A stretch of 64,000 nucleotides of DNA from Chitinophaga oryzae (GTDB lineage Bacteria; Bacteroidota; Bacteroidia; Chitinophagales; Chitinophagaceae): positions 5,766,001-5,830,000 of the forward strand of contig NZ_CP051204.2 of assembly GCF_012516375.2 (NCBI RefSeq), read 5' to 3'. Within the stretch, counting starts at the first letter, position 1; each line of letters opens with the position of its first letter. Shown piece by piece: positions 5,492 through 35,620 of this stretch. The position numbers were made by a program, and so were the translations under genes. The notes below the pieces were generated by a model. The model worked only from the letters and a program-made list of their open reading frames with translations, did not search any database and had not been told where the DNA came from.

Positions 5492-6748
5492 ATGTTTTCA
5501 GAACACCGTCAACGCCTTATCCGGCAACTGCCTGCCGGCGCCGCCGCTGTCCTTACCGCCAACGACACCATGCCCACCAATGCCGACGGAACGATGCCCT
5601 ACTACCCCAACGTGAACGTTTATTACCTGACGGGCCTCACCGAAGAAGATGCCATGCTGGCGCTCTTTCCCGGCCATCCTGATCCTGCCCTGCGGGAGAT
5701 ACTGTTCATCAAACGGGTAGACCAGATGTTTGTGAAATGGCTCGGCAGAAGGGCCGATAAAAACACCGCTTCGGAAATTTCCGGTATCCGCACCGTTTTT
5801 TATACCGATGAATTCTGGGCCGTCATGAAAAGAGTGCTGCCGCTCTGCAATGCTATCTACCTGCATACCAACGAACATGCCCGCTCAGACAATGAAACAC
5901 AAACGCGGGAAGACCGGCTGCTGCTGGACTGCAAACAACGCTATCCGCTGCATCGCTACGAACGCCTCTACCCTATCCTGGCAAGGCAACGCAACGCGAA
6001 AACGCCGGGAGAAACAGCGCTCCTGCGCAAAGCCAGCGGGATCACCGAAAAAGGCTTCCGCCGCGTACTGCAAACCATCCGTCCCGGGCAAACCGGTATG
6101 CAGGTAGCCGCAGAAATGATCCACGAATACATGCAGTATAACGCCACCTGGGCCTATGAACCCATCGTGGCTTTTGGTGCAGACGCCTGTATCCTGCACT
6201 TCCGCGCCAACGAAAGCACCGGCAAAGACGGAGACCTGGTACTGATCGATGCAGCAGCACAATTCCGCTACTACAATACAGACCTCACCCGCACCATTCC
6301 GCTGAACGGTCGTTTCTCCCCGCGTCAGAGAGCCTACTACGACGCGGTGCTGCGGGTACACCAACAGGTGGCGCAGGAAGTAAAGGCGGGCATCCTCATA
6401 AAAGATCTGTGGAAAATCTCCAACAACCTGCTGCTCGGAGAACTGGTGGGACTGGGGCTCTGCACTACCGCCGACATTAACAAACACGACGCACAGCATT
6501 ATCTCAACAAATACTGCTATCACAACGTGTCTCACTTCCTGGGACTGGACGTACACGATACCGGCTATTATGATGAAGTGATGCCCGCAGGCGCCGTCAT
6601 CACCAATGAACCGGGTATTTACAACGAAGAAGAAGGTATCGGGGTGAGAATTGAAAATGACCTGCTGGTCACTGAAAACGGCTTTGAAGATCTGATGAAA
6701 ACGATCCCGAAAGAAGCAGAAGAAATTGAGGACCTTATGAACCGGTAA
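5492..6748 (+). CDS. pepP: aminopeptidase P family protein (Xaa-Pro aminopeptidase)
   Basis: Metallopeptidase M24B, 418 residues, which removes an N-terminal residue preceding proline. An AMP_N-type N-terminal domain (about residues 5-130, with YYLTGLTEEDAMLALFPG) is followed by the pita-bread catalytic domain. Metal ligands are visible: Asp in VLIDAAAQFRYYNTDLTRT, His in HNVSHFLGLDVHD, Glu in VITNEPGIY and Glu in GVRIENDLLV. No signal peptide, so cytoplasmic. The gene is monocistronic, with a promoter-like box 28 nt upstream and a long hairpin between its stop and the convergent neighbour. Confidence 0.93.
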   Translation: MFSEHRQRLIRQLPAGAAAVLTANDTMPTNADGTMPYYPNVNVYYLTGLTEEDAMLALFPGHPDPALREILFIKRVDQMFVKWLGRRADKNTASEISGIRTVFYTDEFWAVMKRVLPLCNAIYLHTNEHARSDNETQTREDRLLLDCKQRYPLHRYERLYPILARQRNAKTPGETALLRKASGITEKGFRRVLQTIRPGQTGMQVAAEMIHEYMQYNATWAYEPIVAFGADACILHFRANESTGKDGDLVLIDAAAQFRYYNTDLTRTIPLNGRFSPRQRAYYDAVLRVHQQVAQEVKAGILIKDLWKISNNLLLGELVGLGLCTTADINKHDAQHYLNKYCYHNVSHFLGLDVHDTGYYDEVMPAGAVITNEPGIYNEEEGIGVRIENDLLVTENGFEDLMKTIPKEAEEIEDLMNR

Positions 6749-6758
6749 TCATTTATAA

Positions 6759-6839
6759 ATTTTCGGATTTCGGAATTTAGGTATTGTGGGATAATGACTC
6801 CTCAAAGTCACAAATACCTAAATTCCAAAATCCGAAAAT
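6759..6839. repeat. long intergenic inverted repeat (bidirectional terminator-like)
   Basis: Arms at 6759-6785 and 6813-6839 are 27 nt each and complementary with one mismatch. They are built from repeats of the words TTTCGGA and TTTAGG. The hairpin occupies most of the gap between two convergent genes. It is one of several intergenic hairpins in this window made of tandem short words (13004, 16764, 40604). Confidence 0.8.
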
Positions 6840-6846
6840 CCCAAAA

Positions 6847-8778
6847 TTATTTTAGAGAGTTGATCCACAGCGCGATCTTAGTGGCATCGGCCTGTGGCAC
6901 CTGCGGGAACGGTGGCATCGGCGTAGCATAGCCCGGCCAGTTCTCCGGCTTTGGATTTTTAATCAGCGCCAGAATTTTGGCGACGGAGTAATTCCTTTTG
7001 GCCACTTCCTTAAAGCCGGGCCCTACCTGTTTCTTTTCTGCATTATGGCAGGAAGAGCAGGTATATTTATTTAACAACGGCTGTATCTGTGCGAGCGTTG
7101 GTACTTTGGTGGCCTCTGCTTTGGGTGCCGCGGTTTTAGCAGGAGCTTTCGGTTCAACCACCGGCGCTTTGGCAGAATTTTTAGTGCTGACTTCAGACAT
7201 GGCCAGGGATGCGCCTTCCGGAATATTGTTCAGCGTATAGTACACATCCGGATGTACCAGTGAATAGGAACCTTCCTGGGAACGTATACCCGTGAGCGAT
7301 ACCTTATGAATATAATAACGGCGTAAACCACTGACGATAATACGCGCGCTCATGCCGTCGGCCGCTACTTTCACCCCTTTAACGGTCAGCTTTTCCGTGT
7401 TCACGGTCGGGCTGCCATACACCGGATGATATTTGTAGATAAAGCTCTCCACCTGGTAAGATGCCAGGTCTTCCGCATACTTTTTATCTACCGGCTGCGT
7501 GAAGGTGATCTCGAAGCCATCCGGTTTCGCACTTGCCGTTCTCATTTCGAAAGGTACCCGGTTGTTCCACACCAGTCGCTGCAGGCCCTGGTTAGCGTCG
7601 CCGGCAGAACCCCAGCCGCGGTTGGTTTCCCCTACGAAGAGCGAACCGTCTTTAGCCCATGCCAGCCGCAGTACGCCTGACTGGAAACCGCTTCTGAAAT
7701 CCCAGGCTGCTCCCTGGTATTCTCCGTTTACTTTTTCGAGGTATACGCGCATGATCTTACTCTGTCCCTGGTCACCTATCAGTACCTGTTTGGCAAAAGG
7801 CCCGAACACCCCTTCCGGGATGGGCAGCACCTGTGCATTGGAGATACCCAGCACGCCATGTGGTAACCATACCGCCGGCAGCTGTACTTCAGGGAAGTAT
7901 TGTTTCATATCGAACAGCGTCACGAACTTTTCGTTCTCCACGTTCTCCGGTTTGATAGCGCGGTTGTTGGCATCTCTGCGGAAGCGGGGGTCTACTTTGC
8001 TGTACAGCTGCTCGGTCGTCAGTTTCACCGGCGAGTTGGGCAGGTTGCTCCAGCGCAGGCCCGCAGGATGTCCTACGAAGCTGCCTTTTTTCACATGTAC
8101 CAGTGCGCCGGAACCCATCCAGTCGCCCTGATTTTCGGTGTAGAACAGTTCACCGTCGATGATACCGAGGCCGCAGGGAGAACGGAAGCCGGTGGCCCAG
8201 GGTTCCATTTTACCATCCGGAGAGATGTGCATCATCCATCCGCGCCAGGGAACGCGGCTTTCACCTCGCCACCATTCTTCATCGCCGAAGGCTACGTTGC
8301 CGGAAACGAAGAAAGAACCGTCCGGCGCTACTACCGGGCCAAAGCTGTATTCGTGATAGTGACCGGATAACGGCCAGGAATATACGGTTTCGAAGCGGTC
8401 TATTTTACCGTCCATATTGGTATCGGTAAGTTTGGTCAGTTCTCCGCGTTGTGCGCAGTAGAGGGAGCCGTCTTTCCAGGCGAGGCCCAGTACTTCGTGG
8501 AGGCCGGAGGCCACTTTGCGGAAGTAAGGCTGGCGGCTGGTCGGATTTTCCACGATGAAGATATCACCGCGGCGCGTAGCGATGCCCAGGTCGCCGTTGG
8601 GCAGCGTACACAGGCCGCCTACTTCCAGCAGGGTGCCTTCCGGCGAGCTGATACGCGCAATGCGGAAGAAGTCTTCCTCTTTGGGCGACTCCTGTGCCAG
8701 CGCCGGTTGAATAGCAGTCGTCATCATCAACATACCGGCTGCTATTCCGGCTGTTAATCTTTTATAAGTCAGTTTCAT
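6847..8778 (-). CDS. secreted beta-propeller dehydrogenase-like protein with C-terminal cytochrome c
   Basis: About 643 residues. A signal peptide (LTAGIAAGMLMMTTAIQPALAQ) is followed by a beta-propeller resembling glucose/sorbosone dehydrogenases (GGLCTLPNGDLGIATRRGDIF, GLAWKDGSLYCAQRGEL, SPCGLGI). A linker rich in Ala/Pro/Lys (about 545-575) leads to a class I cytochrome c with heme motif CSSCH and a likely axial Met in PMPPFP. The ATG at 8778 was chosen over one 39 nt upstream because it begins the signal peptide directly. It lies 22 nt after the DUF1080 gene and is presumably co-transcribed. Likely role: periplasmic sugar oxidation feeding electrons to the heme; the substrate is unknown. 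Confidence 0.85.
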   Translation of the reverse strand: MKLTYKRLTAGIAAGMLMMTTAIQPALAQESPKEEDFFRIARISSPEGTLLEVGGLCTLPNGDLGIATRRGDIFIVENPTSRQPYFRKVASGLHEVLGLAWKDGSLYCAQRGELTKLTDTNMDGKIDRFETVYSWPLSGHYHEYSFGPVVAPDGSFFVSGNVAFGDEEWWRGESRVPWRGWMMHISPDGKMEPWATGFRSPCGLGIIDGELFYTENQGDWMGSGALVHVKKGSFVGHPAGLRWSNLPNSPVKLTTEQLYSKVDPRFRRDANNRAIKPENVENEKFVTLFDMKQYFPEVQLPAVWLPHGVLGISNAQVLPIPEGVFGPFAKQVLIGDQGQSKIMRVYLEKVNGEYQGAAWDFRSGFQSGVLRLAWAKDGSLFVGETNRGWGSAGDANQGLQRLVWNNRVPFEMRTASAKPDGFEITFTQPVDKKYAEDLASYQVESFIYKYHPVYGSPTVNTEKLTVKGVKVAADGMSARIIVSGLRRYYIHKVSLTGIRSQEGSYSLVHPDVYYTLNNIPEGASLAMSEVSTKNSAKAPVVEPKAPAKTAAPKAEATKVPTLAQIQPLLNKYTCSSCHNAEKKQVGPGFKEVAKRNYSVAKILALIKNPKPENWPGYATPMPPFPQVPQADATKIALWINSLK

Positions 8779-8800
8779 AATTTCTCGTGCGTGTTTCTGC

Positions 8801-10660
8801 TTAGAAGATAATGGCATAGCCGATGGCTGTTTTTACCGGTACGATCAGTTCCATTTTTCCCTGTTGACGGCGGATAACGGGTTTCGTACCGTTATTGTCT
8901 ATTTTCACATACCAGGCTTTGTCCCCTATCATATAAGTGCCATCCGCCAGTTGGGAAATACTATCGGCCACGGCTATACGGGCATAGAGGCCATCCTGGG
9001 CGCCTGCCACCTGCAGGCTGCGGTGCAGCCCCGTGTTGCCGGGCAATATGCGGAAGGTGTCGGTTACTGCAGCGCCGTAAATATCGAACCGGAAAGAAGG
9101 CAGTCCTTCGGGATCGAGGTCGTATCCTTTAGGGCGGTAAGCGGTGCCCGCTGTATCCGAGGGCCATGCTGCCTCAGCGGAGGCAAGACGCGCCAGCGAC
9201 ATCGCCGGCTTGTTGTCCAGTACCCGCACCATGCCCATCGGGCGGGAGGAGCCGTCGCCGCGATCGTGCCACATAGGCGTGGTGTTCAGGAACTCGCCGC
9301 GCCATGCCTGTACCGGCGCTGCATGGTCCATATCGTAGGTGTAATGTACTTTGACCGGGCTGCCTACAGAAACGGCGTGTACTACGCGCGGACCGCCCCT
9401 GAGGTCCATAAAGCTGCGCAGTACTGTGTTTTCAGCAGCTGTAACGAGGATGGGATCTGTGGGGTCGTCGGCAGGCACGTTCAGGTCGCTGAGCACGAAC
9501 TCACGTACGGCAGCGGAACGAACGCTCAGCGTCAGGGAAGGTTTCGCCCAATCCACATTTTTAGCATACAGTACTTCTACAGGGTAGCTGCCGGGTTGCA
9601 GGGTGATGCTTCCTCTCGCCTCGCGGTTGCGGGCACCATTGAGCAGCTGATCGTTGACTTTTAGCTGTCCGCCGCCACCGGAAGTGTGCAGATTAAAATC
9701 GTACGTGCCGGCGGCCTTTACGTCCAGCGTAGTGGTATAGCGCACCAGGAACTCATTGTCGGGCAAACCGGGAAGATTGGACGTCAGTTGCGCAGCTTCC
9801 CCGGTGGTTGCCGGTTTGAGCGTTTTGAAATCCGGTGGCTGCCGGAAGGAACCTTTGTAAATAGCGTATTGCACTGCTTTCAGTTCCGGTTTGGGCGCGT
9901 TGTAGGACTGGGCCCTGATATTGCGGAAGGCCACGGTGCCGTGGTCGCCCTGGATGCGCAGCGGTCCTTCTGCCACTTCATTATTTCCCATACCGCCGCG
10001 GGTAGGGCCGGACAGTACTACGTTTTCCTGGATGGTAACGCCGTTGAGTTCTATTTTAAGGATGACGGCGTTGGCAATTTTATTACCCGCAGCATCGAAG
10101 CGGGGCGCCTGGAAGGCTATTTTCATATGTTGCCACAGGCCGGGCGCCAGGCTGGCATTCTGGCGGGGAGCATGCCCGTCGTAGCCCTGCTGCCCTTCCG
10201 GACGGCTATCGTCCCAGCGTTCGTAGATACCGCCGTTGTCAGACGACCGGGGATTTACCGCGCCCCAGCTGTCGAGCAGCTGGATTTCGTAGCGGCCTTG
10301 CAGGTAGATGCCGGAATTGGATTTGGAAGACACGAGGTAGTCCAGCTCCAGGTCCAGGTCACCATGCTGCCAGTTAGTGTACAGGTCCTGGCCGTGTTTA
10401 CCTTTCTCGGGCAGGTTGACCAGGATACCGGTGCCGTTGGTGGCGGTCAGCGTGTTTTCTTTTTGCAGGTCGGCGTTGACGTCACCGGCAATGCGCCAGT
10501 TAGCTGCCGGCTGTTTGAATCCTGACAGGTCGGTCAGGGGAATTGACTGCTGGGCCATCAGCTGCTGGCTGCAGCCAATGCCCATCATGAAGACCAAAGC
10601 TTTACCGGGACTAACCCCCAGTTGTTTCAACTTCGGACGGAACTCATACCATTTGAGCAT
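8801..10660 (-). CDS. DUF1080 (3-keto-disaccharide hydrolase-type) protein with PA14-like domain
   Basis: 619 residues with an N-terminal export signal ending near LMAQQ. The first module (about 40-255) is a concanavalin-like DUF1080 domain, with typical SNSGIYLQGRYEIQLLDSWG, GGIYERWDDSRP and GLWQHMKIAFQAPRFD. The second (about 265-385) resembles PA14 (FLVRYTTTLDVKAAGTYDF and GGGQLKVNDQLL). The last 230 residues are of unknown type. Pfam names DUF1080 as 3-keto-disaccharide hydrolase; the activity here is inferred. It is the first gene of a two-gene leftward operon with the propeller-cytochrome. Confidence 0.87.
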   Translation of the reverse strand: MLKWYEFRPKLKQLGVSPGKALVFMMGIGCSQQLMAQQSIPLTDLSGFKQPAANWRIAGDVNADLQKENTLTATNGTGILVNLPEKGKHGQDLYTNWQHGDLDLELDYLVSSKSNSGIYLQGRYEIQLLDSWGAVNPRSSDNGGIYERWDDSRPEGQQGYDGHAPRQNASLAPGLWQHMKIAFQAPRFDAAGNKIANAVILKIELNGVTIQENVVLSGPTRGGMGNNEVAEGPLRIQGDHGTVAFRNIRAQSYNAPKPELKAVQYAIYKGSFRQPPDFKTLKPATTGEAAQLTSNLPGLPDNEFLVRYTTTLDVKAAGTYDFNLHTSGGGGQLKVNDQLLNGARNREARGSITLQPGSYPVEVLYAKNVDWAKPSLTLSVRSAAVREFVLSDLNVPADDPTDPILVTAAENTVLRSFMDLRGGPRVVHAVSVGSPVKVHYTYDMDHAAPVQAWRGEFLNTTPMWHDRGDGSSRPMGMVRVLDNKPAMSLARLASAEAAWPSDTAGTAYRPKGYDLDPEGLPSFRFDIYGAAVTDTFRILPGNTGLHRSLQVAGAQDGLYARIAVADSISQLADGTYMIGDKAWYVKIDNNGTKPVIRRQQGKMELIVPVKTAIGYAIIF

Positions 10661-29684: not shown

Positions 29685-31129
29685 TGAAGATATTAGCAGC
29701 AACCGGAAACTGGAATCTTTTCATCGGGAGGATACACCCGCTGATCGTACATCTGCCGATAGGCATCCTGATGATCGCCTTTGTGCTGGCGCTGCTGGCG
29801 CGCAGCAGCAAACGGGCCGGCCTGCGGGCCGCGCTGCCATTGCTATTGCTGGCCGCCGCCCTTTCGGCCGTCGCCAGCTGTGTGGCGGGCTACCTGTTAT
29901 CGCTCGACGGCGGTTACGACGAACATCTGCTCAACACCCACCTGTGGCTTGGGATAGGCGTTGCCGTTAGCAGCGCCCTGCTCTGGCTGATGAGCGTTAT
30001 CCCTGCCGCCAAACGGCTGGCGCGCTTCGAGCTGCCGCTGTTTGCGCTGCTGCTGGTGCTGGTATCCGCCGCAGGGCACTATGGCGGGTCGCTCACCCAC
30101 GGCGACGATTACCTGCTGCAGGCCATGCCTCCGGCGCTGCAGTCCTTCGCCGGCAAAAAGGCTGTCGCTGATAACGAAGCCGCCTATACGAATGTAGGCG
30201 ATGCGCGGGTATATGAAGACCTGGTGGCGCCGGTGCTGTCTACCCGCTGCTATGGCTGTCACAACGCACAGAAACTAAAGGGGGGACTACGGCTGGAAAC
30301 AATTGCCCTCATCCGTGAGGGAGGCGAACACGGACCGGTATTAAAAGACAGTATGCCCGAAGAGAGTGAATTGTTTAAAAGGCTGGTGTTACCGGACAAC
30401 GACGAGCACCGTATGCCGCCCAAAGGCAAGCCGCAGCTGTCGCCCCGCGAGGTAGAGCTGCTTTACTGGTGGATTGCGCAGGGAGCGCCCACCGGTAAAA
30501 CGGTGAAAGAGCTGAAGCCCAATCCGCGTATACAGCTGGTGCTGGAAGCGATGACACCGGGCAAAGCGCTGGACCACAACGAGTTTGTTCCGGAAGGTGC
30601 GCCTTCGGCGCCGGATAGAAAAAGCATGGAAGCCCTGGAAGCCAAAGGGGTGAAAGTATTGCCCATAGCGGCCAACAGTCCTTTTGTGGCTGTCAGCTGC
30701 GTGAACGCAGCGGATTTCAGCGATGCAGATATGAAGCTGTTGCATCCCCTCCGGTCGCAGCTGATATGGCTGGACCTGTCCGGCACGCGCATTACCGATG
30801 CAGCGCTGGCCGACATCGCGCAGCTGACAGCACTTACGCGGCTGGAGCTGAAACAGACGGCTGTCAAAGGTTCCGCGGCCACGCCGCTGGCCGGCTGCGG
30901 GGAACTGCGGTACCTGAACCTGAGCGGCACCGCCTGTACGCCGGCTTTCCTGACGGCGCTGGCGAAGAATAAAAAGTTACAGCAGTTGTACCTGTACCAG
31001 GCTAACCCTGACGCCCATACGCTGCAGCAATTGCGTCAGCAGCTGCCTAAACTGTCCATCGACACCGGCGGCTACCGGTTGGAGCCACTGGCGTCAGATA
31101 CTATCATCTACAAAAGGAAAACGGTTTAG
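29684..31129 (+). CDS. membrane protein: DUF2231, cytochrome c and leucine-rich repeats
   Basis: 481 residues. The N-terminal DUF2231 domain has four transmembrane helices (HPLIVHLPIGILMIAFVLAL first). Then comes a planctomycete-type cytochrome c domain with heme motif CYGCH and KLKGGLRLET, followed by HRMPPKGKPQLSP. The C-terminal part carries leucine-rich repeats (LIWLDLSGTRITDAALADI and ALTRLELKQTAV). It probably anchors electron transfer of the operon in the inner membrane. Its end overlaps the convergent HPP gene by 4 nt. Confidence 0.88.
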   Translation: MKILAATGNWNLFIGRIHPLIVHLPIGILMIAFVLALLARSSKRAGLRAALPLLLLAAALSAVASCVAGYLLSLDGGYDEHLLNTHLWLGIGVAVSSALLWLMSVIPAAKRLARFELPLFALLLVLVSAAGHYGGSLTHGDDYLLQAMPPALQSFAGKKAVADNEAAYTNVGDARVYEDLVAPVLSTRCYGCHNAQKLKGGLRLETIALIREGGEHGPVLKDSMPEESELFKRLVLPDNDEHRMPPKGKPQLSPREVELLYWWIAQGAPTGKTVKELKPNPRIQLVLEAMTPGKALDHNEFVPEGAPSAPDRKSMEALEAKGVKVLPIAANSPFVAVSCVNAADFSDADMKLLHPLRSQLIWLDLSGTRITDAALADIAQLTALTRLELKQTAVKGSAATPLAGCGELRYLNLSGTACTPAFLTALAKNKKLQQLYLYQANPDAHTLQQLRQQLPKLSIDTGGYRLEPLASDTIIYKRKTV

Positions 31130-31743
31130 AACCATTTACGTTTATCGGGGTATTGCCGGATGTCGGTCATATTGTTTATCACCACCGCTACGAGTAACAG
31201 TATGGCCACTCCGGAGGCCACCGGCGACAGCACATACCAGAAGCCCAGCTTCCGGATGGCCGGTGAGCCCGCGACCGCCAGCAGGGCGGTAGCGCCGCCC
31301 GGCGGATGTACCGTTTTAGTGACCTGCATCACCACCAGCGATGCCGCCACCGCCAACGCACAGGCAAGCCATTCCCATTCGGGCCAGGGTACCAGGTACC
31401 CTACCGTTACCCCTACCACTGCACTTAATAAATGTCCTCCTACTAAATTACGCGGCTGCGATAGCGGACTTTGCGTATGGCCGTAAATCAACACCGCCGA
31501 TGCGCCAAAAGAGCCTATCAGGAACAGGTTATCCTTTACAGGGAGATAAAAGTGGCTTAATAAACCTATACTGGCAATGCCCGCAAAAGCGCCTATAAAT
31601 GACCAGTAAATATTCTTTTTGTCGATCAATGTCTCGCGGTACATCACATACCGGGCAACCCTTATGCCGCGCCGCAGCCGGATGAACTTCGCTTTCTGAT
31701 GATGTTCCCGGTGCGCGGCTTTCTTTTCTTGTACAGATAACAT
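31126..31743 (-). CDS. HPP-family membrane protein
   Basis: About 205 residues. After a basic N terminus (KKAAHREHHQKAKFIRLRR) there are four transmembrane helices. The family signature is VHPPGGATALLAV, with GSFGASAVLIYG in the preceding part. HPP proteins are linked in some organisms to nitrite or anion transport; no such context is visible here. The ATG at 31743 was chosen because the longer frame starts in a Phe/Lys-rich stretch. Convergent with and overlapping the DUF2231 gene. Confidence 0.87.
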   Translation of the reverse strand: MLSVQEKKAAHREHHQKAKFIRLRRGIRVARYVMYRETLIDKKNIYWSFIGAFAGIASIGLLSHFYLPVKDNLFLIGSFGASAVLIYGHTQSPLSQPRNLVGGHLLSAVVGVTVGYLVPWPEWEWLACALAVAASLVVMQVTKTVHPPGGATALLAVAGSPAIRKLGFWYVLSPVASGVAILLLVAVVINNMTDIRQYPDKRKWF

Positions 31744-31922
31744 TTTTACTTTCTTCAGTTTCCCTTTTTGGGGCTGATTTCCGGGCGCGAAGATAAGGCA
31801 GAAAAATTTTTTTACCTGCGCAAAAAGACTGCGCACATGGTCCTGCATCTTTGTATCATCGAAGCGGTCAAGTAAAAGTTACTTCATCATTTGGGATTAC
31901 TTTCACCATTATCGCTTCTCAT

Positions 31923-32042
31923 AAAGCAGTCGTCTAATCGGCGAAGACACCGGTATAGGAGCTCCGGAATTACCGTCAGCCGTCAACCGGGGCTTACTTC
32001 CTGAGGGAACCGGGGATGTTGGTTCGAATCCAGCCTGCTTTA
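31923..32042 (+). ncRNA. tRNA-like RNA with a 54-nt insert replacing the anticodon loop
   Basis: A complete tRNA core can be folded: acceptor stem AAAGCAG/CTGCTTT (31923-31929 with 32035-32041), D stem GTCT/AGAC with a 9-nt loop holding GG, anticodon-type stem CCGGT/ACCGG (31950-31954 with 32009-32013), a 4-nt variable loop, and T arm GTTGG/CCAGC with loop TTCGAAT. U8, A14, R15, G18-G19, A21 and T54-T55-C56-A58 are all in place, so the L-shaped elbow should form. But 54 nt (31955-32008) replace the 7-nt anticodon loop, so it cannot decode. The insert folds as AGCTCCGG with CCGGGGCT around a loop with two CCGTCA copies, plus a small TTCC/GGAA hairpin. No CCA is encoded. It lies 81 nt before the RING-TerD gene. 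Confidence 0.82.
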
Positions 32043-32123
32043 CTATCAAGGTCAATTGTTGCTTACTTCATTTTTCTGTTAAAAAAATAGCGGCAAAATT
32101 ATCTGATTATAAAACTTATAACG

Positions 32124-34352
32124 ATGAACAAGATTCAGAAGGTAGCATTACGTCAACAGGCCGTTTATATCCCGGCAACCGCCATGAACGGCGCTGCAGG
32201 AATGAATCCTGACACGGCCCTGCTGGTAGCCAATATGGCCAGACTGGGGTTCGGCGTGACCGAGCGGCTGTTGCGCGCCCTGGAAAAAACCGATGCTGCC
32301 ACACAGGCACAGATACTGGAGCAGCTCCGGAAAGTGATGGGTACAGACCTGAACTGGGCGCCGCTGGTAAAAAACTGGAGTGTGCCTACCGGAGAATCCT
32401 ACGCTGACCATATCATCACCTATTTCGCCAACTTGCTGGGCCTTACCGGGGGAACAAAGCTGGCCTGCGGTTGCCTGATACCGCCCCATACTTTTCCGCT
32501 GGACCGTTACAACGGTTGCCCTTTCTGCGGCACACCGCTGGAAACCGCTGCCATAGAGGACTACGGACAGAACAAAAAACTGCGCGTATTAGACCTGTGG
32601 ACGCTGGAAGATGCGGAGCAATACCTGGAAAACCTGCTGGCCTCCCGTACCGCGCTGGATGCCACCCAGCAGAGCAGCCTGCGTCGTTTGCTGACAGAAC
32701 TGCCGTTGCCGGAAGGGAAAATTGCCATGCGTGAAACAGCGGTCACCGTTATCGATATCCTGATAAAACAAGGCCGGGCAGAAAAAGCACAGGTATTGTT
32801 TAACACGCCGACGGATATACTCCGTTATCTGTGGTTTAAACATACCGGTTTCCTGCAACTGGTAGCGCCGAAAACCATTATCGCACGTATGCAGCGTAAC
32901 AACGTGGGGCCGCGCGGCGCCAGGCAGGACCAGTCCGCCAAAACCGCGGCGGCGGCTTCGCTGAAACTGAAATACCGCCGTGAAGACGCGCTGATCGCTG
33001 CGCGCTGGATCAACGGGCTGTCTATGGACGCCGCGAAGATCTGCGCCGATATGCATCCTAAAAGGCAAATGTGGGTACGTTTTATCCGCGCCCTGCGCCT
33101 GCCGGAATATAGCAAGCGTGCAGGCTTTGAGCACCTGCGTACCATCCTGGATAAATTTTACCGGGAGGACTACGACGTGTGGCAGGGACGGCTGGACCAG
33201 TTCCGGCTGCGTCATGATGCGTCCAGCACCTTTTACCTGTTGCAGCAGCGGCCGGGATTATTTGCCCGCTCTCTGTTTGCCAATATGCTGTGGTTCGGGC
33301 CGGAAGTAACGATCGAAGCGTTTTCAAAGATCGCCGACCAGGTGCCTGCCCGCCTGCTGTTCACCTTGCAGATGTACGCCGAATACTATTTCGACCCTGC
33401 TTCCACGCGCGTGGTAAGACCGCTCGGAGGTACCGCCAAAAGCCTGTCAGCCAACAGACTGCTGGCCCTGTACACCGCAGAGGAACTGGAACAGATGCAG
33501 CGCGCTGTCGCCGGTCTGTGCCTGGAAGTCACCCGTAAACGCTTTGCCGCCATACCTGCCGCCGGCCGTACCATGTACATCGATCCGGCCTTGTATAAAA
33601 TACCGCTGGCCATCGGCGACCGTAGCGAACAAATACAGGACCTGCCGGCAGCCCTGATGGGAACCCGTTTCCCGCTGCAGGGCAATACCATCCGCCTGTT
33701 CATGCAATGGGGTAAAGGACTGCCTGCCCAGCACCTGGATATGGACCTGAGCTGCCTGATCAGCTATGAAGCGCACGTGGACTACTGTTCCTTCAGCCGC
33801 CTGCAGACCACCGGTTGCAAACATAGCGGCGATATCCGCTCTATCCCCAACCAGGTAGGGACCGCAGAATACATCAACCTGGACGTGGAACAACTGGCTG
33901 CCGCCGGCGCCCGGTATGTAACGTTCACCTGCAACGCCTTCAGCTCCGGAAGCCTCGTACCGGAGATGGTCGTAGGATGGATGGATAGCCGCCATAGCAT
34001 GAAGATTTCCAATAAAACGGGCGTAGCATACGACCCGTCCTGCGTACAACACCAGGTACGCATCACGCGCGGGCTTGCCAAAGGCCTGGTCTTCGGTGTG
34101 CTGGACGTTGCCGCCCGTGACATCATCTGGCTGGAAATTCCTTACGAAGGACAGGTGATCCAACAGCTGAACGGTAACAATGTGGCCGGCCTGCTGAAAA
34201 AACTGGAACAGAAACTGACCATCGGGCAACTGCTGGAGATAAAAGCCGCCGCACAACAAATGCAGCTGGCCGGTACCACCGGGGCCGACGAGGTATACAC
34301 CGCCCAATGGGCCCTGGATACCGCCGCCGTGACACAATTGTTTGTCGATTAA
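32124..34352 (+). CDS. RING-like zinc / helical / TerD-like multidomain protein (MXAN_6230/SCO0854 type)
   Basis: 742 residues, no signal peptide or membrane segment. Residues 112-136 form a RING-like treble-clef zinc site (C115, C117, H122, C132, C135; the tail reads GCPFCGTP). Residues 160-480 are helical, perhaps HEAT- or TROVE-like (for example HPKRQMWVRFIRALRL). Residues 521-675 read like a TerD domain: HLDMDLSCLI, HSGD at 567-570, then INLDVEQLAAAGARYVTFTC. From memory this matches a family NCBI names after MXAN_6230/SCO0854. TerD proteins take part in stress responses; the function of this combination is unknown. The tRNA-like RNA just upstream is its probable partner. Confidence 0.72.
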   Translation: MNKIQKVALRQQAVYIPATAMNGAAGMNPDTALLVANMARLGFGVTERLLRALEKTDAATQAQILEQLRKVMGTDLNWAPLVKNWSVPTGESYADHIITYFANLLGLTGGTKLACGCLIPPHTFPLDRYNGCPFCGTPLETAAIEDYGQNKKLRVLDLWTLEDAEQYLENLLASRTALDATQQSSLRRLLTELPLPEGKIAMRETAVTVIDILIKQGRAEKAQVLFNTPTDILRYLWFKHTGFLQLVAPKTIIARMQRNNVGPRGARQDQSAKTAAAASLKLKYRREDALIAARWINGLSMDAAKICADMHPKRQMWVRFIRALRLPEYSKRAGFEHLRTILDKFYREDYDVWQGRLDQFRLRHDASSTFYLLQQRPGLFARSLFANMLWFGPEVTIEAFSKIADQVPARLLFTLQMYAEYYFDPASTRVVRPLGGTAKSLSANRLLALYTAEELEQMQRAVAGLCLEVTRKRFAAIPAAGRTMYIDPALYKIPLAIGDRSEQIQDLPAALMGTRFPLQGNTIRLFMQWGKGLPAQHLDMDLSCLISYEAHVDYCSFSRLQTTGCKHSGDIRSIPNQVGTAEYINLDVEQLAAAGARYVTFTCNAFSSGSLVPEMVVGWMDSRHSMKISNKTGVAYDPSCVQHQVRITRGLAKGLVFGVLDVAARDIIWLEIPYEGQVIQQLNGNNVAGLLKKLEQKLTIGQLLEIKAAAQQMQLAGTTGADEVYTAQWALDTAAVTQLFVD

Positions 34353-34363
34353 TATTCCGCCTC

Positions 34364-34423
34364 GTTTCCCCAGGGCTCACGCCCTGGGCTACGATGTGCG
34401 GCCTCCGGCTGAGCCCGGGGAAC
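34364..34423. repeat. REP-like double-hairpin element
   Basis: An inner hairpin CCCAGGGC-TCAC-GCCCTGGG (34369-34388) lies inside a longer inverted repeat whose outer arms are TTTCCCCAGGGCTCA (34365-34379) and TGAGCCCGGGGAA (34410-34422). It fills most of the gap between the RING-TerD gene and the next gene. Similar GC-rich elements recur between genes in many bacterial genomes, so copies elsewhere in this genome are likely. Confidence 0.6.
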
Positions 34424-34459
34424 CATGATTCGGAAAATTATCGTTATTTTCGGGCGATC

Positions 34460-35620
34460 ATGCGCATGCCCAGAAACCTGCTGCTTCCCATATTGCTCTG
34501 TTGTAGTGTATCAGTAAACGCCCGCCAGGCCCCTACTTCCGGCAACAGTACAGACACCACGGCCCCTAAGGGGTTGTATCAGCGTGTGCTCCATTATCTG
34601 CAGCATACCAATGACGAAAGCAAACATAAAAAAGTAGATCTGAGTTTCATCGGCGGACCGGTATACACCCCCGAAACCAGCGCCGGCATTGCGGTAATGG
34701 TGGCCGCACAATACCGCACCGACCGGGCGGACAGCCTGCTGCCGCTGTCGAATGTGGCCGTTTTTGGTTCTGTGGCGCTGACAGGTTTTTATGGTGTCGG
34801 CCTTAACAGCACCACCATTTTCCCGAAAGACCGCTTCCGGCTGATGCTGAAAGCTTCTTTCAGTTCCCGTCCCGATAAATACTGGGGAATTGGCTACGGA
34901 GCCGGTTCTGCGAAAGACGATTATACCGACTACCTGTTGCTCACGGAAAAACTGCAGGCCGACCTGGCCATCAACCTCAGCAACCGCTTCTATGCCGGCC
35001 TCAGCACCCATGTGCAGAATGCGCAGGCGAAAGACATCGATACCGGCACGGGTAAACCCCTGATGGAACCCAAACGGGTTTTCGGCATGGGCGCAGGACC
35101 TTTTGTAGTATACGACACCCGCGACTTTATCCCCAATCCCGCCCGCGGCATATACGCCCGGATAGGCTACCGCTTCTACCCTTCTTTTTTGGGCAACAAA
35201 TCGGTTTTTTCCAAGCTGGAACTACAATTTGACTGGTACAAACGTCTCTGGAAAGGCAGCATCCTTGCGATGGATTTCTACGCAGAAGAACATAGCGGTG
35301 ATGTGCCCTGGAACCTGCTGGCGCAGGCTGGCGGCTCCAACAGGTTGCGCGGCTATTATGAAGGCCGGTACCGCGACCGTAATTATTTAGCCGGCCAGGT
35401 GGAACTGCGGCAACGTATCTACCGCCGCAGCGGCGCCGTTGTATGGGTAGGCGGCGGCAACGTATTTCCCCGCTTCAATGAACTCTCCTTCCAGCGAACG
35501 CTCATCAGCTATGGCATCGGCTATCGCTGGGAATTCAAAAACCGCGTCAATATCCGGCTGGACTATGGCCGCGGACAAGACCAGTCCGGTTTCTACTTCG
35601 GGGTCAACGAAGTATTCTGA
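34460..35620 (+). CDS. BamA/TamA-type outer-membrane beta-barrel (surface antigen)
   Basis: About 386 residues. A signal peptide (LLLPILLCCSVSVNARQ) is followed by a 16-strand-like barrel with alternating hydrophobic strands. The terminal part LLAQAGGSNRLRGYYEGRYRDRNYLAGQVELR matches the bacterial surface antigen (Omp85) family, including the lid-lock R-G-Y motif. There are no POTRA domains, so it is a short Omp85-like protein, 'patatin-like associated' or similar. The start at 34460 was chosen for the signal peptide; upstream sequence is the REP-like element. Its stop abuts the convergent xseB stop. Confidence 0.82.
   Translation: MRMPRNLLLPILLCCSVSVNARQAPTSGNSTDTTAPKGLYQRVLHYLQHTNDESKHKKVDLSFIGGPVYTPETSAGIAVMVAAQYRTDRADSLLPLSNVAVFGSVALTGFYGVGLNSTTIFPKDRFRLMLKASFSSRPDKYWGIGYGAGSAKDDYTDYLLLTEKLQADLAINLSNRFYAGLSTHVQNAQAKDIDTGTGKPLMEPKRVFGMGAGPFVVYDTRDFIPNPARGIYARIGYRFYPSFLGNKSVFSKLELQFDWYKRLWKGSILAMDFYAEEHSGDVPWNLLAQAGGSNRLRGYYEGRYRDRNYLAGQVELRQRIYRRSGAVVWVGGGNVFPRFNELSFQRTLISYGIGYRWEFKNRVNIRLDYGRGQDQSGFYFGVNEVF

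Follow-up and report, generated by a model that had tools for sequence, protein, structure and literature searches.

A tRNA-like RNA with a motif helix in place of its anticodon loop, linked to a RING-like protein gene in Chitinophaga oryzae

The window analysed here, a stretch of 64,000 nucleotides from the genome of Chitinophaga oryzae, encodes an RNA with the stems and elbow of a tRNA and a structured insert in place of the anticodon loop (Table 1). Such RNAs are encoded in many Bacteroidota, ahead of a gene often found among those for RNA repair. Two of its features went unnoticed in the original prediction of this RNA: the insert is a motif-bearing helix common to both flanking hairpins, and the RNA is tied to the gene downstream, which encodes a RING-like protein of 742 amino acids. 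From the order of its arms, the RNA is best read as a topological isomer of YrlA, a bacterial Y RNA, in un-permuted form, and it is probably the tRNA-mimic scaffold of a ribonucleoprotein (RNP) similar to that of Ro60 and Y RNA, with the 742-aa protein as the protein component. Neither the RNA nor its link to the protein is named in the literature searched; Burroughs and Aravind (2016), which lay outside that search, may describe how the gene is placed in RNA-repair operons, or even this RNA.

Table 1. Features of the RNA, its promoter region and the downstream gene, in window coordinates
Feature	Position	Strand	Evidence
Palindrome TGCGCAAAAAGACTGCGCA	31817..31835	.	19-mer identical in the host's WYL/TROVE intergenic region
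CATCTTTG, candidate -7 element	31846..31853	+	10 nt past palindrome
Stand-alone hairpin 1, GGTCAA-GTAAAAG-TTACTTC ... CTTTCAC-CATTATCG	31866..31914	+	6/7 pairs
tRNA-like RNA	31923..32042	+	RF00005 44.9 bits; own model R1; covariation
Acceptor stem	31923-31929/32035-32041	+	AAAGCAG/CTGCTTT, 7/7 pairs
D stem	31932-31935/31945-31948	+	4/4 pairs
Anticodon-type stem	31950-31954/32009-32013	+	CCGGT/ACCGG, 5/5 pairs
54-nt insert	31955..32008	+	helix 7/7 pairs; double changes at 7/7 positions, 31 relatives
Insert strand N7' GCTCCGG	31961-31967	+	pairs with N7 CCGGGGC
Insert motif AATTACC	31968-31974	+	sequence
Insert loop	31975-31980	+	sequence
Insert motif CGTCAA	31981-31986	+	sequence
Insert strand N7 CCGGGGC	31987-31993	+	pairs with N7'
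Insert motif TTACTTC	31994-32000	+	sequence
T arm	32018-32034	+	stem GTTGG/CCAGC, 5/5 pairs
Discriminator base	A32042	+	sequence
Stand-alone hairpin 2, GGTCAA-TTGTTGC-TTACTTC ... GCGGCAA-AATTATCT	32050..32104	+	7/7 pairs
742-aa RING-like protein gene	32124..34352	+	NF041916 160.9 bits; Prok-RING_4 weak match

Fold of the tRNA-like RNA

The four stems pair throughout, as had been predicted, and the elbow nucleotides U8, A14, A15, G18-G19, A21, T54-T55-C56 and A58 are all present. The Rfam tRNA model (RF00005) aligns to the whole RNA with 44.9 bits (gathering score 29) and places the 54 nt in the anticodon loop, where the original prediction had them; our own covariance model, R1, scores it at 91.7 bits, the window RNA being one of the rows on which R1 was trained. 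A functional tRNA has a 7-nt anticodon loop with U33 and an anticodon, a site filled here by the insert. ARAGORN reports no tRNA gene across the window, so no better standard cloverleaf was found, and the earlier view that the RNA cannot decode as it stands holds. CCA is not encoded 3' of the discriminator base.

Folded as a single sequence, the RNA is no better than its shuffles (z -0.77), and its minimum free energy structure (-40.0) differs from the cloverleaf, which together with the insert helix evaluates to -30.4 kcal/mol. Support for the tRNA-like fold is comparative, not thermodynamic. Among 31 aligned relatives, 97.6% of the cells in 26 pairs are paired, and 20 pairs show double changes (159 cells). 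Neither statistic was reached in any of 500 shuffles, although kinship between aligned sequences can itself beat shuffles. Because the row search demanded stem pairing, part of the paired percentage follows from the selection itself, which affects the double changes less. Sliding the partner strand by one column lowers pairing to about 50%. The insert had been described as structured, and its helix indeed shows double changes at every pair. RNAalifold, unaided, recovers the same helices with the exception of the anticodon stem. This stem is not in register in the 31-row alignment; scored apart, it pairs 5/5 in 14 of the relatives (swapped control mean 2.3, maximum 7) and at least 4/5 in 27 (mean 13.3, maximum 22). 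Covariation of this strength means that the window RNA is real, and on this point too the original prediction stands.

Relatives were filtered by an acceptor stem of at least 6/7 and a T stem of at least 4/5, plus a D-arm score. From 77 raw rows, 41 RNAs were parsed and 31 aligned, all single-module and at most 132 nt long; left out were nine RNAs of 149-195 nt, which were nested, mis-parsed or had long inserts of another kind, and, from the 32 of at most 132 nt, one of 117 nt in which the parsing gave no insert helix.

The insert helix and the stand-alone hairpins

The insert is a variable 7-bp helix between fixed motifs, AAUUACC and GGUCAA-N7-UUACUUC. Its order in the window RNA is N7'-AAUUACC-loop-CGUCAA-N7-UUACUUC, with CGTCAA in place of GGTCAA. 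On both sides of the tRNA body lie hairpins that join these two strands at the opposite end, in the order GGUCAA-N7-UUACUUC-loop-N7'-AUUAUC. Such motif units number 233 and occur in 87 of 102 regions upstream of homologues of the 742-aa gene (the window, 78 of 80 homologue loci, 13 family loci and 10 of another genus, with three genomes counted twice). At least 6/7 pairs are formed by 203 units (swapped-N7 control mean 39.7, maximum 58) and 7/7 by 134 (mean 9.2, maximum 20), with 123 distinct N7 strings among the 233. Units that pair at least 6/7 divide into 148 that fit the hairpin connectivity better and 48 that fit the insert connectivity better. The flanks are nearly invariant, and the letters of the helix differ yet still pair, as would be expected if a protein reads the motif around the helix.

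An intron-containing or degenerate tRNA would also have an insert within the anticodon loop and could score above the gathering score of the tRNA model. An ordinary or intron-containing tRNA was rejected on the motif shared with the hairpins, the strong covariation, and a search of 274 nt that matched no Rfam intron family at E<=10. The host genome (8.36 Mb, one contig) has 66 other matches to the tRNA model, a further point against a degenerate or intron-containing tRNA, which we regard as very improbable.

The unit varies between loci. In many Prevotella-type loci there is no tRNA body and at most one hairpin; among L046-L098, mostly loci of this type, many keep a single GGYC(C)AA-N7-TTACTTC hairpin in front of the gene and no tRNA body. 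R1 scores 82 bits at L072 and 83 at L096. Upstream in L002, L003, L004 and L032 are tRNA-like RNAs of 149-197 nt, apparently with two nested copies of the motif helix inside the anticodon loop. Reduced forms occur at L091 (3715-3769; about 55 nt, with acceptor, D and T arms and no anticodon arm) and upstream in L013 (acceptor plus T-arm mini-helices). Repeated hairpin-like stretches with CCTTCCTTC, seen by eye downstream of the Variovorax relative of the protein (L154, about 5540-5750), are possibly a diverged version of the unit array.

The RING-like protein and its link to the RNA

The 742-aa protein is a distant relative of MXAN_6230/SCO0854, the family model of which (NF041916) it matches under the curated cut-off (160.9 bits against 600). 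It has no Pfam match above cut-off. Prok-RING_4 reaches 13.3 bits (cut-off 27) and is found at E<=1 in all 58 aligned relatives, at best with 1.1e-5. Profile searches of the PDB gave weak matches, nearly all of them RING fingers (best E 0.69 and 0.012). Homologues at E<=0.001 number 3969 among the 7999 candidates scored, Chitinophaga eiseniae being the closest named relative found (92% identity). Some relatives carry the name TerD family; no match to the TerD profile was seen for the protein or its relatives. TROVE/Ro60 proteins have a HEAT-ring fold. TROVE is absent from the 23 Pfam families matched by the 58 relatives at E<=1, and homology to TROVE found no support, hhalign giving 0.2% and 0.35% for two alignment pairs. 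No described function for the RING-protein family was found in the literature searched.

The RING-protein gene in the window is followed by a gene for an Omp85-domain protein (34307-35620, + strand), found by tblastn at 10 Chitinophaga loci and in no other sequence searched, many of these with short flanks. In L028, genes for vWA_CoxE and DUF5682 (6259-9623) follow the RING-protein gene on the opposite strand.

A covariance-model search across the family, suggested with the original prediction, bore out the RNA and revealed its partner. In 195 genomes of the host's family (18 candidates per genome scored, with strict filters), R1 gave 14 matches above 58 bits in 11 genomes, all of them adjoining the 742-aa gene. 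The R1 matches listed below 58 bits are 73-75 nt long, the length of ordinary tRNAs, with one exception of 89 nt (53.4 bits) at the 742-aa gene in genome G085. The gene itself was found in 15 of the 195 genomes. Four of these are without an R1 match above 58 bits: G085 and G150 have nested modules, G177 has a reduced form with acceptor plus T arm only, and at the gene in G162 no tRNA-like RNA was seen by eye.

Beyond the family, a survey of 395 genomes of the phylum found the gene in 11, namely the host and ten of one genus. Outside the training set, R1 scored at least 90 bits in nine of the ten loci of this genus, which belongs to another family (38.4 in the tenth), and 92.3 bits at a Hymenobacter locus. 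In all, 88 sources were scanned with R1 (56 of the 80 homologue loci, 14 family loci, the window and 17 TROVE loci), giving 46 matches of at least 81 bits, of which 31 are training rows and several genomes are doubled. None of these lies in the 17 TROVE loci, where the best match has 40.8 bits and tRNA length. Neither R1 nor the YrlA model matched in the 3-kb flanks of the protein's relatives in Variovorax, Streptomyces, Vibrio and Niallia. Among viral contigs, 44 stretches matched two short patterns and none is a relative.

Promoter region

The palindrome TGCGCAAAAAGACTGCGCA is a probable operator, judging by its recurrence at the host's TROVE locus. The exact pattern TGCGCA-N7-TGCGCA has 3 sites in the host genome and the reversed-pattern control 0; the third site (C1:7960096) is where a porin-like reading frame begins and was left out of account, being probably unrelated. 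A degenerate box is found up to 1200 nt upstream of 54 of 102 homologues. This upstream sequence (118 kb) contains 81 boxes, as against 14 in the other 778 kb of the loci, and most of the 48 loci without a box are Prevotella-type. The CATCTTTG sequence, which we take to be a candidate Bacteroidota -7 element, has a counterpart at the same 10-nt distance past the palindrome in the host's TROVE locus. Homologues of WYL-domain genes flank the 742-aa gene in 32 loci and TROVE in 7 (113 sequences searched, three genomes counted twice); in the window there is no WYL gene near the RNA. On the minus strand, an HPP-family reading frame (31126-31848) overlaps the RNA's promoter region with its longest start, and its true start is likely further in.

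In loci with a box, 182 of 188 units are situated between that proximal box and the gene, and 51 of the 54 loci have all their units there. This order would suit the main rival to the RNP, a purely cis-acting leader in which the hairpins and the tRNA-like element act on the RING-protein mRNA, regulating or processing it through autoregulation or cleavage by RNase P/Z, without any RNP acting in trans; so would the single upstream hairpin kept in many Prevotella loci that have no tRNA body. However, arrays of up to seven units (L151) and nested modules are more than a switch needs, and a complete tRNA elbow and acceptor stem are maintained. YrlA-type RNAs also lie downstream of TROVE in Chitinophagaceae and of the RING gene in genome G101, a weak argument because YrlA lies upstream of TROVE in records from Rhodococcus and Deinococcus. 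Taken together, these points leave a leader acting only in cis as an unlikely explanation, if the strongest of the rivals.

Arm order and the Ro60 loci

Bacterial Y RNA has been described as a circularly permuted tRNA (PMC11472068, which cites the YrlA structure 6CU1). In the Rfam YrlA model (RF02553), the T arm, an acceptor hairpin and the D arm follow one another between the strands of the outer stem. Like YrlA, the window RNA has a tRNA-like domain in which both the D arm and the T arm are intact, but it runs acceptor 5', D, anticodon/insert, T, acceptor 3', and it is not encoded beside Ro60/TROVE. In the comparison with Rfam that had been suggested for it, the tRNA model matches and the YrlA model does not at E<=10. 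The un-permuted order agrees with the earlier remark that this layout, its acceptor end being normal, could not be matched to known tRNA mimics; it is not that of YrlA. The accompanying idea of a new class was right in that this is a real tRNA-mimic RNA; rather than an unconnected class, it appears to be a topological isomer of YrlA.

This distinction extends to other loci when a single criterion is applied to both kinds. Among 107 T arms in 102 RING-gene loci, 65 (in 47 loci) have the un-permuted order only and none the permuted order only; 1 has both, 12 have ordinary tRNA length and 29 have neither. The 39 T arms in 17 TROVE loci comprise none with the un-permuted order only, 10 with the permuted order only (in 8 loci), 3 with both, 3 ordinary and 23 with neither.

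The host's own TROVE/Ro60 gene is separate, about 4.3 Mb from the window in contig coordinates, with a divergent WYL-domain gene beside it and a YrlA-type RNA downstream (41.2 bits, E 1.2e-5, below the gathering score of 69). Genome G101 connects the two kinds of locus, with a YrlA match downstream of its 742-aa gene (39.1 bits, E 4.9e-5, likewise below 69) and no TROVE match. In Chitinophagaceae TROVE loci, downstream tRNA-like RNAs carry an analogous motif, GCCGUA-N-UUACUUCG, which stands 5' of 16 of the 39 T arms at TROVE loci. The palindrome common to the two loci and the UUACUUC shared by the insert and the TROVE-linked motif could also mean that the window RNA is a true Y RNA serving the Ro60 encoded elsewhere in the host. 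TROVE occurs in 17 of the 195 family genomes and together with the 742-aa gene in 4, about 1.3 being expected, which points the same way. Yet no TROVE match was found in 11 of the 15 family genomes that bear the gene, nor in 8 out of 11 genomes that R1 matches strongly (one of these 8, G142, is 60% complete), and the strand-A motif is GGUCAA, not GCCGUA; we therefore consider a Y RNA of the host's Ro60 improbable.

RNA-repair neighbourhood

The original prediction had pointed to YrlA and RNA-repair operons, and this proved to be the right neighbourhood, given the palindrome common to the Ro60/WYL locus and the repair genes near relatives of the 742-aa gene. In G101, the YrlA match is followed by genes for Band_7, an RNase_T-type exonuclease, RlaP nucleotidyl transferases, a T4-type RNA ligase and PNKP. 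Nine further loci have RlaP relatives close to the 742-aa gene and two have RNA ligase there, RtcB is near or downstream of it in L041, L043, L045 and L086 (four likely RtcB reading frames were picked), and rtcR adjoins the Variovorax relative. These counts are minimum values, with 1.5-kb flanks for the family loci and neighbours tabulated for some loci. In the host itself, neither WYL nor RNA-repair genes adjoin the 742-aa gene, and the one RlaP match is 1.7 Mb from the window.

In the known system, the stem of YrlA holds Rsr and the tRNA-like domain binds PNPase (PMC8394870). The Salmonella operon has been tied to cleaved tRNAs, with YrlA suggested as a possible competitive inhibitor of an anticodon nuclease (PMC7790460). 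That proposal and the repair context would fit a decoy or substrate trap directed at toxins that cleave tRNA or at anticodon nucleases, a role raised in the original prediction. It is not the role best supported here: a decoy leaves unexplained both the motif helix shared with the bare hairpins and the fixed gene partner, and we rate it slightly below even the improbable Y RNA of the host's Ro60.

Proposed function of the RNP

The tRNA-like structure, the gene linkage, the shared palindrome and the repair context are computed; from them we infer a scheme for the transcription, processing, binding, induction and function of the RNA. A WYL regulator, perhaps sensing products of RNA or DNA damage, would control a single transcript made up of hairpin, tRNA-like RNA, hairpin and mRNA. 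The tRNA-like RNA would be freed by RNase P and 3' tRNA processing. In this proposal the 742-aa protein would bind the GGUCAA/UUACUUC helix by analogy with Ro60, which binds the stem of Y RNA. The tRNA body with its free acceptor end would be the other half of the tether and would either draw enzymes that act on tRNA (nuclease, nucleotidyl transferase, RtcB) into the complex or block them, and such recruitment or occupation would take place during RNA damage. The hairpin closest to the start codon may allow autoregulation of the 742-aa protein's mRNA. Several observations weigh against the scheme: the 742-aa protein shows no sequence similarity to TROVE, WYL and repair genes do not adjoin the gene in the host, the window copy has CGTCAA, four gene-bearing family genomes have no R1 match above 58 bits, many Prevotella-type loci have no tRNA body, and many T arms of both sets have neither order.

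More tentatively, and with a little less than even confidence, we suggest a second machine of the Ro60/Y-RNA kind, built from RING-like proteins without detectable sequence kinship to Ro60 and from un-permuted mimics with a free, possibly CCA-tailed acceptor end. Such mimics would illustrate how a Y RNA could be derived from a tRNA: the anticodon loop would gain a protein-binding helix, and the ends would then move. With the window RNA, a tRNA mimic has a naturally occurring topological isomer, a path from tRNA to Y RNA becomes testable, and two connectivities of one helix module can be compared directly. The RNA also provides a candidate RNA partner for a widespread RING-protein family that is present in gut and soil Bacteroidota, often close to RNA-repair enzymes.

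Comparison with known systems

The 742-aa protein aligns with MXAN_6230/SCO0854 (NF041916) over residues 9-678. It differs in scoring under the cut-off, and no such RNA was found in the 3-kb flanks of the four non-Bacteroidota relatives.

With tRNA (RF00005), the window RNA shares the cloverleaf stems and elbow nucleotides, but it carries a 54-nt motif helix instead of a 7-nt anticodon loop, and the discriminator base of the mimic varies between relatives.

The Ro60/Rsr-YrlA-RtcBA operons resemble the loci of several relatives in having a tRNA-mimic RNA, RtcB or other repair enzymes and a regulator of the ligand-sensing type nearby. In contrast to Ro60/Rsr, the 742-aa protein has a RING-like zinc site and no detectable similarity to TROVE.

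YrlA (RF02553) is likewise a tRNA body of D arm, T arm and acceptor helix in which the anticodon end is extended into a longer helix. The 5' and 3' ends of the window RNA are at the acceptor stem, whereas those of YrlA are on the Ro60-binding stem, and the helix of the window RNA is closed by a loop inside the anticodon loop. The strand motif is GGUCAA here and GCCGUA in the TROVE-linked RNAs, and the gene partner is a RING-like protein, not Ro60. The TROVE-linked YrlA-type RNAs nevertheless share UUACUUC and the palindrome with the window RNA, and a WYL neighbour with loci of its relatives.
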